In this document: in pieces, positions 17,177 through 25,476 of the stretch | Numbering within the stretch: the first letter of the stretch is position 1 | How the letters are laid out: every line of letters begins with the position of its first letter | From: Paenibacillus sp. MMS20-IR301 | GTDB lineage: Bacteria > Bacillota > Bacilli > Paenibacillales > Paenibacillaceae | Length of the DNA: 64,000 nt | Assembly (NCBI RefSeq): GCF_032302195.1 | Contig: NZ_CP135275.1 | Span: 7,213,001-7,277,000, forward strand | Reading direction: 5' to 3' | The notes under the pieces: model-generated | What the model saw: the letters and a program-made list of their open reading frames with translations, nothing else | Databases searched by the model: none | Told to the model about the DNA's origin: nothing | Translations under genes and position numbers: made by a program

Positions 17177-17229
17177 ACCCATGCCGCTGCCCTGTTTCAA
17201 CTGTATTCCCGGCGGTGTATGCTCTTTAA

Positions 17230-17275
17230 AAAGATAAGTATTTATTGCTTCACGCAATTAATACTCCTTATCTTT
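17230..17275. repeat. Long AT-rich hairpin upstream of sdhC
   Basis: AAAGATAAG and CTTATCTTT close the stem. Inside them TATTTATTGC pairs with GCAATTAATA with one mismatch around TTCAC, leaving a small CTC bulge. On the minus strand the stem is followed by TTTTTAAAG, so it could terminate leftward transcription; on the plus strand it has no T-run. Confidence 0.55.
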
Positions 17276-17281
17276 CCCGCT

Positions 17282-17356
17282 GAAACGGATACTGAAAGCG
17301 ATACGCAGTATCGTTGCTTCGGAAGCATTAGCCTTTAAAGGCACTGCAGCCGTTTC
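17282..17356 (+). other. Multi-stem structured leader before sdhC
   Basis: The outer stem GAAACGG (17282-17288) / CCGTTTC (17350-17356) encloses three small hairpins: AGCGATAC/GTATCGTT (17297-17315), TGCTTCGGAAGCA (17315-17327) and GCCTTTAAAGGC (17331-17342). The second matches, in reverse complement, the start of the 65-bp repeats that precede sdhA. Function is unknown; it may be a leader RNA or a mobile-type palindrome. Confidence 0.35.
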
Positions 17357-17371
17357 TACTTGTGAAAACGC

Positions 17372-17380
17372 TGTTATAAT
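17372..17380 (+). promoter_or_regulatory. Possible extended -10 promoter of sdhC
   Basis: TG-T-TATAAT forms a perfect extended -10 with no clear -35. Its predicted start (about 17387) would cut into the sdhC ribosome site, so an upstream promoter may be the main one. Confidence 0.35.
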
Positions 17381-17399
17381 CGGAAAGGGGACACTTTGC

Positions 17400-18065
17400 A
17401 TGAGAGGATTTTATTCCAGAAAGATTCATTCCTTGCTCGGCGTTATCCCGCTCGGGGCCTTCTTCCTTGAGCACATGCTGACGAACTTTGCAGCAGTTGA
17501 GGGGGGCGCTTCCGGTTTCACTGACAGTGTGCTGTGGCTGAACAGCCTGCCGCTCGTCTTCTTCCTGGAATTGTTCGGCATCTGGCTGCCGCTGCTGTAC
17601 CACGGCGTATTCGGCCTGTACATCGCGTACCAGTCGAAGCCGAACCTGAACCGCTACAATCTGGAGCGCAACTGGCGTTATACCCTCCAGCGCATCAGCG
17701 GGGTGGTCACCTTCATCTTCATCGTATGGCATCTGTACGATACCCGGGTCCAGGTGGCACTCGGCAATGTAGAGCATGATGAGCTTGGCGGGGTCATGCA
17801 CAACATTGTAACCCAGCCGCTGCTGATGGCCCTCTATATCGTCGGAATCATAGCCGCCTGCTTCCACTTCTCGAATGGCCTGTGGTCATTCCTGATCAGC
17901 TGGGGCATTACGGTCGGGCCGCGTTCCCAGCGGGTGTCCTCCATTCTGTGTCTCGGCTTGTTCGTAATTGTTACCTTCATGTTCGTGCTGTCACTGGTTA
18001 CCTTCCGTGACGATGAATTTCAAACTGCGGCAGCAGCGGTCCAGTCGCTGCGCAGCTTTATCTAG
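17400..18065 (+). CDS. sdhC: Succinate dehydrogenase cytochrome b558 subunit
   Basis: The membrane anchor of complex II: 221 residues and five hydrophobic segments, as in the di-heme Bacillus type. Candidate heme-ligand histidines include HSLLGVIP (near residue 11), HMLTNF, YHGVFGLY, WHLYDTRV and the histidine in CFHFSNGLW. It passes electrons from the SdhB clusters to menaquinone. The ATG at 17400 follows GGAAAGGGG, and the N-terminus fits B. subtilis SdhC. sdhA begins 217 bases later, a gap filled by repeats. Confidence 0.92.
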   Translation: MRGFYSRKIHSLLGVIPLGAFFLEHMLTNFAAVEGGASGFTDSVLWLNSLPLVFFLELFGIWLPLLYHGVFGLYIAYQSKPNLNRYNLERNWRYTLQRISGVVTFIFIVWHLYDTRVQVALGNVEHDELGGVMHNIVTQPLLMALYIVGIIAACFHFSNGLWSFLISWGITVGPRSQRVSSILCLGLFVIVTFMFVLSLVTFRDDEFQTAAAAVQSLRSFI

Positions 18066-18076
18066 AATATAGCGCA

Positions 18077-18268
18077 TATGCTTCCGAAGCGAGTTTTGTA
18101 CGATGAGAAATCAGGAAGCAGACGCTCACAAAACTTAAGTGTATGCTTCCGAAGCAAGTTTTGTACGATGAGAAATCAGGAAGCAGACGCTCACAAAACT
18201 TAAGTGTATGCTTCCGAAGCAAGTTTTGTACGATGAGAAATCAGGAAGCAAACGCTCACAAAACTTTT
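18077..18268 (+). repeat. Three tandem 65-bp hairpin repeats between sdhC and sdhA
   Basis: Copies start at 18077, 18142 and 18207 and are nearly identical. Each opens with TATGCTTCCGAAGC and contains AAGTTTTGT paired with ACAAAACTT, so each can fold into a hairpin. Each also contains ATG AGA AAT CAG ..., an 11-codon frame (18103-18138 and 18168-18203) with no ribosome site. The third copy runs straight into TTTTAGGAGG, the sdhA ribosome site, and its mini-frame loses the stop and reads on to 18331. Confidence 0.95.
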
Positions 18269-18282
18269 AGGAGGGAACAATC

Positions 18283-20025
18283 ATGGCATCAGCCGATATC
18301 ATCATCGTGGGCGGCGGTCTCGCCGGCCTGATGGCTACCATCAAGGCCGCCGAAGCCGGCGCGCATGTACATCTATTCTCACTGGTCCCTGTCAAAAGAT
18401 CGCATTCGGTCTGTGCGCAAGGCGGCATTAACGGCGCTGTAAATACAAAGGGTGAAGGCGACTCGCCCTGGGAGCATTTCGATGATACCGTCTACGGCGG
18501 CGACTTCCTGGCGAACCAGCCCCCGGTCAAAGCGATGTGTGAGGCTGCTCCGGGCATCATTCACCTGATGGACCGGATGGGCGTCATGTTCAACCGTACG
18601 CCGGAGGGGCTGCTCGACTTCCGCCGGTTCGGCGGGACGAAGCGCCACCGGACAGCATTCGCCGGGGCAACTACCGGCCAGCAGCTGCTGTACGCACTGG
18701 ATGAGCAGGTACGCCGCTGGGAAGCCGAAGGCCTCGTGACCAAAAGCGAGAACTGGGAGTTCCTCTCGGTCATTCTCGACGATGAGCGTGTCTGCCGCGG
18801 CATCAGCGCCCAGAATCTGAAGACGATGGAGATTCAGACCTTCCCGGCGGATGCGGTGATTCTGGCGAGCGGCGGGCCCGGGATTATTTTCGGCAAAACA
18901 ACGAACTCGGTCATTAACACAGGTACCGCTGCAAGCGCAGTATATCAGCAGGGTGTACATTATGCGAACGGCGAATTCATCCAGATTCATCCGACGGCGA
19001 TACCCGGCGATGACAAGCTGCGGCTGATGTCGGAATCTGCGCGCGGTGAGGGCGGACGCATCTGGACCTACAAGGACGGCAAGCCGTGGTATTTCCTCGA
19101 AGAGAAGTATCCGTCGTACGGCAATCTGGTTCCGCGTGATATTGCCACCCGCGAAATCTTCAATGTATGCGTGGATCAGGGACTGGGTATCAATGGTGAG
19201 AACATGGTCTATCTGGACCTGTCGCATAAGGATCCGAAGGAGCTTGACGTTAAGCTTGGCGGCATCATCGAGATCTACGAGAAATTCATGGGCGATGATC
19301 CGCGTAAAATCCCGATGAAAATCTTCCCGGCCGTGCATTATTCCATGGGCGGCATGTGGGTCGACTATAACCAGATGACCAATATCCCCGGCCTATTCGC
19401 CGCAGGGGAATGTGAATACCAGTACCACGGGGCGAACCGCCTTGGTGCGAATTCGCTGGTGTCGGCAATATATGGCGGCATGGTCTCCGGGCCGAAGGCC
19501 GTAGAATATATTAAAGGGCTGAAGAAATCGGTGCAGGATATCTCCTCCACAGTATTTGACAGCTTCCACAAGACACAGACGGATAAATATGAAGCTCTCC
19601 TCGGGATGACCGGTACGGAGAATGCTTACGTCATTCATAAGGAGCTTGGCGAATGGATGACGGCGAACATGACCGTGGTGCGTGAGAACAAGCGGCTTGA
19701 AGCGACCATCGGCAAAATTAAAGAGCTGAAGGAGCGCTACCGTAACATCAGCATGAGCGACACGTCGCGCTGGAGCAACCAGGGGGTGGCGTTCACCCGC
19801 CAGCTGTGGAACATGCTGGAGCTGTCGGAAGCAATGACCCTTGGAGCACTGCTGCGCAATGAGAGCCGGGGGGCGCATTACAAGCCGGAATTCCCGAACC
19901 GCAATGATGAGGAGTTCCTGAAGACAACCAAAGCCAGCTGGAGTGCCGACGGCCCGCAGATCTCTTACGAGGAAGTGGATGTATCGCTGATTCCTCCGCG
20001 GGTGCGGGATTACTCGAAGGACTAA
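18283..20025 (+). CDS. sdhA: Succinate dehydrogenase flavoprotein subunit
   Basis: The catalytic FAD subunit of complex II, 580 residues. Seen: dinucleotide-binding GGGLAGLMATIKAAEAG; KRSHSVCAQGGINGAV, which holds the histidine that carries covalent FAD; HPTAIPGDDKLRLMSESARGEGG of the active site; and the family ending with Arg/His substrate residues (HYSMGGMWVD, HGANRLGANSL). It oxidises succinate to fumarate. The ATG at 18283 follows TTTTAGGAGGG. Length and motifs match Bacillus SdhA. Confidence 0.95.
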   Translation: MASADIIIVGGGLAGLMATIKAAEAGAHVHLFSLVPVKRSHSVCAQGGINGAVNTKGEGDSPWEHFDDTVYGGDFLANQPPVKAMCEAAPGIIHLMDRMGVMFNRTPEGLLDFRRFGGTKRHRTAFAGATTGQQLLYALDEQVRRWEAEGLVTKSENWEFLSVILDDERVCRGISAQNLKTMEIQTFPADAVILASGGPGIIFGKTTNSVINTGTAASAVYQQGVHYANGEFIQIHPTAIPGDDKLRLMSESARGEGGRIWTYKDGKPWYFLEEKYPSYGNLVPRDIATREIFNVCVDQGLGINGENMVYLDLSHKDPKELDVKLGGIIEIYEKFMGDDPRKIPMKIFPAVHYSMGGMWVDYNQMTNIPGLFAAGECEYQYHGANRLGANSLVSAIYGGMVSGPKAVEYIKGLKKSVQDISSTVFDSFHKTQTDKYEALLGMTGTENAYVIHKELGEWMTANMTVVRENKRLEATIGKIKELKERYRNISMSDTSRWSNQGVAFTRQLWNMLELSEAMTLGALLRNESRGAHYKPEFPNRNDEEFLKTTKASWSADGPQISYEEVDVSLIPPRVRDYSKD

Positions 20026-24728: not shown

Positions 24729-24873
24729 TGTGGTACCGGAAATTCTGCAACTTGAAAGTGACGGCTGAAGAAATTTGGAACGGCCGGAGCGCTAGCGAAC
24801 AGGGGCCGGAGGTCCGATGTTCATCGTTGCGGGGGCTATGCTTAATGCTTAAAGCTTAGAGTTCGAGGCCGGA

Positions 24874-24971
24874 AGCCCGAAGCCGGAAGCCTGAAGCCCG
24901 AAGCCAAAAGCCAAAAGCCAAAAGCCAAAAGCCAAAAGCCAAAAGCTTAAAGCTTAAAGCTTCAAGCTTAG
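24874..24971. repeat. Fourteen tandem heptamers
   Basis: The unit is AGCCNNA in the first half (AGCCCGA, AGCCGGA, AGCCTGA), then six identical AGCCAAA and four AGCTTNR units. The array is unbroken at exactly 7-base spacing and non-coding. It probably grows and shrinks by slippage. Confidence 0.92.
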
Positions 24972-25206: not shown

Positions 25207-25285
25207 TGGGGAGCGGACCGGCGTCATCCAAAGTGATGAAGCGGCTACTCACAAGGAGAGCCATCGCTGGAACAGTGAGTAGCAG

Positions 25286-25423
25286 CCGAGCTGCCGCATG
25301 CCGGCCAGCCGAGCTGCCGCATGCCGACCAGGCCAGCTGCCGCATGCCGACCAGGCCAGCTGCCACATGCCGACCAGGCCAGCTGCCGCATGCCGACCAG
25401 CCGAGCTGTCGCATGCCGACCAG
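25286..25423. repeat. Six tandem 23-bp repeats
   Basis: Six contiguous copies of a 23-base unit with core GCTGCCGCATGCCGACCAG and few substitutions. 23 is not a multiple of 3, so the reading frame changes at every copy and the ORFs across it are artefacts. There are no spacers, so it is not a CRISPR array. It lies at the 3' end of the epimerase gene on the other strand. Confidence 0.95.
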
Positions 25424-25476
25424 CCCAGCACGCCCGGAGGCGGATTTGCTCCGGCCGATTACAGCCTTATGCGGCG

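Follow-up and report, generated by a model that had tools for sequence, protein, structure and literature searches.

Shine-Dalgarno sequences as a possible landing pad for a dispersed palindromic repeat in Paenibacillus

The hairpin array that separates sdhC from sdhA in the window (the whole stretch of DNA that was analysed, 64,000 nucleotides) is best read as one member of a leader repeat that behaves like a mobile element, would use the Shine-Dalgarno sequence (SD) as docking homology and would be transcribed as hairpins. At all 48 loci at which the repeat was found in this genome, the array lies on the coding strand with an SD and a start codon directly 3' of it. The sequence evidence leans towards a dispersed, SD-docked repeat that spread onto other SDs by template switching of stalled DNA synthesis and exerts a mild effect as a spacer. 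The notion of the ribosome-binding site as a landing pad, at which a palindromic array is copied in by template switching at the SD, leader hairpins are placed before any gene and operon coupling is altered, is put forward tentatively.

The array at the sdhC-sdhA junction

The array lies 11 nt downstream of sdhC (Sdh_cyt; 17400–18065, plus strand; Pfam) and precedes sdhA, which extends on the same strand from its start at 18283 to 20025 and was identified by the NCBIfam succinate dehydrogenase flavoprotein models (L001 copy) and Pfam. An exact 65-base period with three repeats before sdhA, as originally predicted, was confirmed by alignment of the copies (18077–18141, 18142–18206, and 18207–18271; 65 nt each, with copies 2 and 3 being 98 and 91% identical to copy 1) and by Tandem Repeats Finder (18077–18266, period 65, 98% matches, score 366), for which it was the top of nine rows for the window. 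The layout is the same in each copy and consists in unit 1 (18077–18141, plus strand) of the palindrome GCTTCCGAAGC, the arm AGTTTTGT, a 28-nt middle, the complementary arm ACAAAACT, and a linker. A palindrome and a stem had been claimed for every copy, which holds for copies 2 and 3, where the palindrome TGCTTCCGAAGCA is found and the AAGTTTTGT/ACAAAACTT stem has 9 bp, but not for copy 1, whose palindrome ends in G and whose stem is therefore only 8 bp long. Copy 3 shares homology with the other copies up to 18266, so that the terminal unit (18207–18266, plus strand) ends at CAAAACTT, whereas 18267–18331 consists of TT, the SD, a spacer and sdhA coding sequence. The shared sequence stops 2 nt short of the SD of sdhA (AGGAGG, 18269–18274, plus strand, assigned from the sequence), the docking point of the array, and the last copy leads into TTTTAGGAGG, which represents this SD. 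A covariance model of the repeat matched units 1 to 3 (unit 2, 18142–18206, plus strand) at genome positions 7231078–7231135, 7231143–7231200, and 7231208–7231265, respectively, and these were the only matches listed in the 64-kb window. Promoter- or terminator-like sites were sought inside the array and none were found.

The 11-codon reading frame MRNQEADAHKT* was found in copies 1 and 2, and copy 3 carries a change from GAC to AAC and has lost the stop codon. The original prediction was accurate in these details, but its view of the mini-ORF as a conserved feature was not upheld, as only 4 of the 59 units from this genome have an ATG at the mini-ORF position, and three of these four are the copies of the sdhA array. 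A translated leader, in which the mini-ORF of each copy regulates sdhA, agrees with the intact frames of copies 1 and 2, but was rejected by this census of ATG codons; since the unit middles also differ in length irrespective of the reading frame, it is given virtually no credence. The mini-ORF is a coincidence and no feature of the family.

Repeat units, docking and neighbouring genes

BLAST of 18070–18340 against its own genome (7.69 Mb, one contig) retrieved 40 places including the window's own. The family unit comprises the palindrome GCTTNCGAAGC and the arms AGTTTTG...CAAAACT. A strict arm pattern (AGTTTTGN{18,45}CAAAACT) matched 56 units in the genome and a reversed control pattern none, and chance is excluded because this many exact-arm units recur while the control has no match. 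The covariance model was built from 58 units of 41 loci and ends at the 3' arm, so it contains neither SD nor start codon. It yielded at least 74 matches at E ≤ 0.001 (150 scored out of 2433 first-look candidates), which according to a count of the listing represent 46 loci, 41 of them known and 5 new; the total of 48 is reached with L081 (a tail fragment) and L084, both obtained from other searches only. All five new loci were SD-docked as well, and since the model had been trained on the other 41 they constitute an independent test of docking.

For the other 43 loci docking was established by reading, with the SD and start codon located by script in 42 and by eye in L068, where the script chose a wrong site. 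The distance from the arm to the SD was 3 nt in 35, 2 nt in 7, and 4 nt in 1 of these 43 loci, and the start codon behind the array was ATG in 41 and TTG in 2. Each array has at most three tandem units of 60–66 nt with palindromic arms, and frequently an incomplete unit precedes them on the left. On the right the array ends at a fixed 2–4 nt from the SD, and on the left its end is variable. One, two, and three units were matched by the model at 22, 20, and 4 of the 46 loci, respectively. L083 (genome 4679965–4680150) has the usual arms, but the middle between them is unrelated and forms a hairpin by itself, and the gene behind this array has a borderline match to a GTPase domain. In the array L358 of this genome, a long hairpin (about 21 bp, one bulge) just before position 837 replaces the small palindrome and is followed by short AGTTTTGCTTCACAAAACT-type hairpins.

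The proteins encoded downstream of 43 arrays, a set assembled before the five later loci, were scanned with NCBIfam (10), Pfam (40), or both (7), and Pfam assigned no family to four of them (L018, L024, L066, and L084). The families include sdhA, cdd, xylB, nifB, dapF, cysW, ilvD/edd, spoIIIAH, sspI, yycI, and ylbF, as well as a response regulator, cardiolipin synthase, a methionyl-type tRNA synthetase, a ketoacyl synthase, and a cytochrome c whose gene follows that of cytochrome b and is named qcrC here; some of the gene names were derived from family and context. A common pathway among the 43 proteins was sought in the NCBIfam and Pfam assignments and none was found, and neither was a riboswitch-like association with a single pathway. 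When the 43 proteins were combined with 99 from other genomes, the resulting 142 fell into 89 clusters (the array L119, which precedes an ORF of 41 codons, was excluded). Because the same unit precedes unrelated genes, a dedicated role in setting the sdhA:sdhC ratio, which the original prediction had considered, is unsupported as the reason for the existence of the repeat; an effect of the sdhA array on this ratio is possible. Ten upstream genes were scanned, two of which had no family, and an operon is likely for several arrays (yycH-yycI, cytochrome b-cytochrome c, ABC permease-cysW, histidine kinase-response regulator, and dgkA-cdd). At L069 (1183–1451) a T-box leader (Rfam match) is followed by the array and the methionyl-type tRNA synthetase gene, so that this array lies downstream of another regulator and adjoins the SD.

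Selection for a regulatory function is the main rival to the template-switching account. The arrays would then be cis-regulatory RNAs through which a trans-acting protein, a small RNA or a general signal controls a diverse regulon, and the docking would be a product of selection. SD docking at every locus read is in line with this reading, and the fixed position could equally be explained by selection for function, but the genes concerned, from nifB and the methionyl-tRNA synthetase gene to sspI and dapF, share no common pathway.

Predicted RNA structure

The predicted fold of 18066–18300 was more stable than all 200 shuffled sequences (z −3.2). Single units were barely more stable than shuffles (mean z −0.4 for 41 terminal and −0.7 for 18 internal units), which speaks against a cis-regulatory RNA and also counts against the preferred reading. 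Arm pairing was analysed in an alignment of 58 units, which had been chosen without requiring paired arms but were trimmed at the 3' arm. The fraction of arm cells that pair was 95.8%, compared to 94.8% in shuffles. Two-sided changes occurred in 6 cells versus 1.0 in shuffles, and none of 500 shuffles reached this number, but when pairs instead of cells are counted only two have such changes, a value reached by 82 of the 500. Sliding the partners by −1 gave 7 two-sided cells against the 6 observed, but with only 48.8% of cells pairing. Where both arms of a unit were shortened (L033, L073, L077, and L078), gap placement caused them to be scored as broken, and two-sided changes recognised by eye include ATTTTTG/CAAAAAT (L255, L257), GTTTAG/CTAAAC (L397, L399), and AGTTA/TAACT (L357). 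Some arm changes thus appear to be compensatory, with a weak predicted stability and one control that is not clean. Such arms would suit a cis-regulatory RNA, as would conserved bases beyond them, for instance the CGAAG that follows the 5' arm and the CG in the loop of the palindrome. Because the units vary in length, mutual information calculated on fixed columns gave a blurred signal.

Since the pattern used to pick units of the named loci keeps the 5' arm and CGAAG constant, the palindrome alone was tested in these units. Among the palindrome changes in 292 units, 110 keep a G-U pair in the mRNA strand, whereas 2 would keep one in the antisense strand alone; with one unit per locus (179 units) the counts were 65 and 1. 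This asymmetry points to a role of the repeat as RNA, with the caution that the units are related and the GCTT half is nearly invariant, and it could also be explained by GCTT being held constant for some other reason. At one palindrome pair, 45 of the 292 units have a U-U mismatch.

The arrays might also act as switches of the RNA thermometer or riboswitch type, in which CTTCC of the palindrome sequesters the SD by pairing with GGAGG and formation of the GCTT/AAGC hairpin sets it free. Many isolated terminal units show the sequestering pair in their minimum-energy fold, and in the fold of the window array the SD pairs with the palindrome of the first unit. However, the SD-complementary pentamer is found in 143 of 179 terminal and 94 of 114 internal units (p 0.65), although the latter have no SD, and the predicted accessibility of the SD in 43 arrays was 0.449 versus 0.384 with shuffled upstream sequence (p 0.012), which makes it slightly more open. 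The comparison of terminal and internal units and the predicted accessibility thus lend no support to a conserved helix holding the SD, and a switch of this kind is considered very improbable.

Pairing between units (the 3' arm with the 5' arm of the next unit) is conceivable but was rejected, as in L006, L033, and L075, whose adjacent units have different arms, the changed 5' arm fits the 3' arm of its own unit. For an H-type pseudoknot between CUUNCG of the palindrome and CGAAG, 92.4% of the cells pair, but the helix cannot be distinguished from a local hairpin because none of its pairs is changed on both sides. Rfam 15 contained no match in the window, the array included, at the gathering score; below this threshold, 17200–18400 had only weak matches to snoRNAs and sRNAs.

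Distribution, spread and comparison with known repeats

A search for the 65-mer repeat in this genome and its relatives, as proposed with the original prediction, recovered it at the 48 loci described above and in its strict form (AGTTTTGN{18,45}CAAAACTTTTAGGAG) in 86 of 100 congeneric genomes. Across the family, the same pattern was present in 108 of 295 genomes, covering 9 of 19 genera, and the reversed control had no match in the rows of either set. A scan of named genomes returned 114 stretches, and 79 of the 80 matches listed belong to Paenibacillus and the remaining one to Paenibacillaceae. The genomes G006 and G040 contain 27 and 26 strict units, respectively. As judged from these patterns, the repeat family is typical of Paenibacillus and its relatives.

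At individual genes the distribution is patchy. By the strict rule, 13 of the 98 sdhA loci read from the 100 congeneric genomes have an array, and in 38 of the 98 sdhA starts within approximately 17 nt of the sdhC stop codon without any insert. Inspection by eye revealed altered or decayed units in L099, L244, L245, L250, L252, L255, and L257, and a plain hairpin in L105, L106, and L108–L111. Two unit types are ordered A-B in L092 and L093 and B-A in L094, so that arrays are not only patchy but also rearranged between close relatives. At ylbF, an array was recognised by eye in 10 of 30 loci, and L398 additionally has the tail only. The lack of the array at many close orthologues of sdhA, qcrC, and ylbF is a further argument against a cis-regulatory RNA, which on balance appears rather unlikely.

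The sole clean comparison of filled and empty sites is offered by qcrC, for which 30 genomes were searched, one of them without a match, and 17 upstream regions were read in a second pass after the script. An array was found in 4 of 29 relatives, and the other 25 are empty, with a gap of about 10–17 nt that contains an SD. The four carriers are most alike in QcrC (100 and 92%, others 90% or less) and by SdhA identity are not the four nearest genomes; a single gain of the array is the simplest reading, albeit not a proved one. The insert starts within a unit and extends to the SD, and at this fixed junction the SD (TAGGAGG in the nearest of the empty sites) is what filled and empty sites have in common. 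As all 25 empty sites have an SD, the simplest account is that the array was copied in before an SD already in place, and the element seems to dock at this sequence rather than to carry it. The original prediction of a spreading element that carries a ribosome site is therefore borne out with regard to the dispersed, SD-docked and patchy occurrence, but not with regard to the SD as cargo.

Because qcrC sites with and without an array have the SD in common at this junction, we infer from the junctions alone that copying involves template switching at the SD. DNA synthesis would stall at the palindromic array, and the new strand would pair again at the SD of another gene, whereby a stretch of the array would be copied in just upstream; slippage would create tandem copies and deletion would remove them. 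Unit identity averages 92% within arrays (22 pairs, range 74–100%) and 75% between loci (1689 pairs), and three cross-locus pairs of 92–93%, which come from the two locus pairs L007/L071 and L033/L078 (0.93), suggest copying between genes. In the mRNA, the array would form a spacer of hairpins. Its most likely effect would be mild, namely to separate the SD from upstream sequence and thereby uncouple sdhA translation from sdhC, which would give sdhA an independent start at a junction that was coupled before; possibly it also shields the downstream message from nucleases.

The short, dispersed, palindromic and patchily distributed units would also be compatible with a MITE or REP/BIME-like element that is mobilised by a transposase. 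However, the left end is variable, the right end lies at the SD, only a single orientation occurs, and no duplicated flank was visible by eye between filled and empty qcrC sites. Y1 (RAYT-type) transposases, the sole transposase family searched, were absent from this genome, G006, and G040; PF01797 (Y1, TnpA-REP) had 0 matches in this genome and matches in 56 of the 100 congeneric genomes. RAYT/REP mobilisation was rejected since this genome has no Y1 transposase, and mobilisation by a transposase in general is regarded as improbable.

Short dispersed palindromic repeats are a known kind of element, and it is the docking at SDs that sets the Paenibacillus repeat apart, as dispersed bacterial repeats usually spread over intergenic space. 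REP/BIME elements are short palindromic units that form tandem arrays throughout genomes and are associated with RAYT transposases. The Paenibacillus repeat resembles them in its short, palindromic, tandem and genome-wide units, but differs by its one orientation, its position 5' of genes at the SD, and the lack of a Y1 match. RiboJ-type constructs are designed insulators in which a hairpin precedes the ribosome site; like the array, they have a hairpin that adjoins the SD and would isolate it from upstream sequence, but the array is natural and its insulating effect is putative. The bcr1 repeat has larger single units that are not known to dock at SDs, unlike the tandem, SD-docked repeat in Paenibacillus. 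According to a reference title in PMC2267715, bcr1 of the Bacillus cereus group was described with characteristics of a mobile element, and in this respect and as lineage-specific dispersed repeats of Bacillales the two would be alike.

The available part of PMC3049150 describes BOX of Streptococcus pneumoniae as a dispersed element that is predicted to fold when transcribed and whose internal boxB is absent or present in multiple copies; as background, it mentions that downstream expression can be stimulated by boxA and boxC and inhibited by boxB, and also refers to BIME effects. By this description, BOX and the Paenibacillus repeat are both dispersed, predicted to fold in RNA, and variable in the number of an internal module, here as one to three tandem units at the 46 loci. 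BOX is composed of boxA, boxB, and boxC, however, whereas the Paenibacillus repeat has one unit type with a variable left and an SD-fixed right end; no constant flanking module like boxA or boxC was seen in the 43 loci read, and SD docking of BOX is not described in that part of PMC3049150. The name Paenibacillus has 0 occurrences in the main text of PMC6429828 and PMC2267715. A description of the element was sought in full-text literature, including literal sequence strings, and none was found; since this covered mostly non-subscription papers, novelty is unproved. A repeat limited to SDs and to one orientation would amount to a natural genome-wide experiment on pre-SD sequence and translation, and would reveal how core genes, sdhA and qcrC among them, can rapidly change in operon spacing and translational coupling. 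The filled and empty orthologous sites are ready for testing how a short repeat can spread without a known transposase.

Several other repeats were observed. A second dispersed repeat lies upstream of sdhC in the window (17225–17292); BLAST of 17215–17380 hit the genome at 15 places, its own among them, and most hits cover about query positions 7–78, and the sdhC-sdhA gap of L090 contains a stretch resembling this repeat. Also upstream of sdhC, TTGCTTCGGAAGCAT (17314–17328) matches the palindrome region of copies 2 and 3 exactly in reverse complement. Tandem Repeats Finder detected further tandem repeats in the window at 24864–24970 (7-bp units, e.g., AAGCCAA) and 25283–25429 (23-bp unit, 6.4 copies). 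In other species, a different dispersed repeat, GGACTTTTTGAACAACCTCTTAAAGGAG, is located at the sdhA SD (L280, L281, L293, and L295; L313–L324). Compared with the consistent docking of the hairpin arrays, this repeat was less regular, although it was searched with an SD-like end inside the pattern: of the 12 loci read only 6 were at a clear gene start (sdhA in 4 cases), 2 preceded short doubtful ORFs, and 4 had neither.
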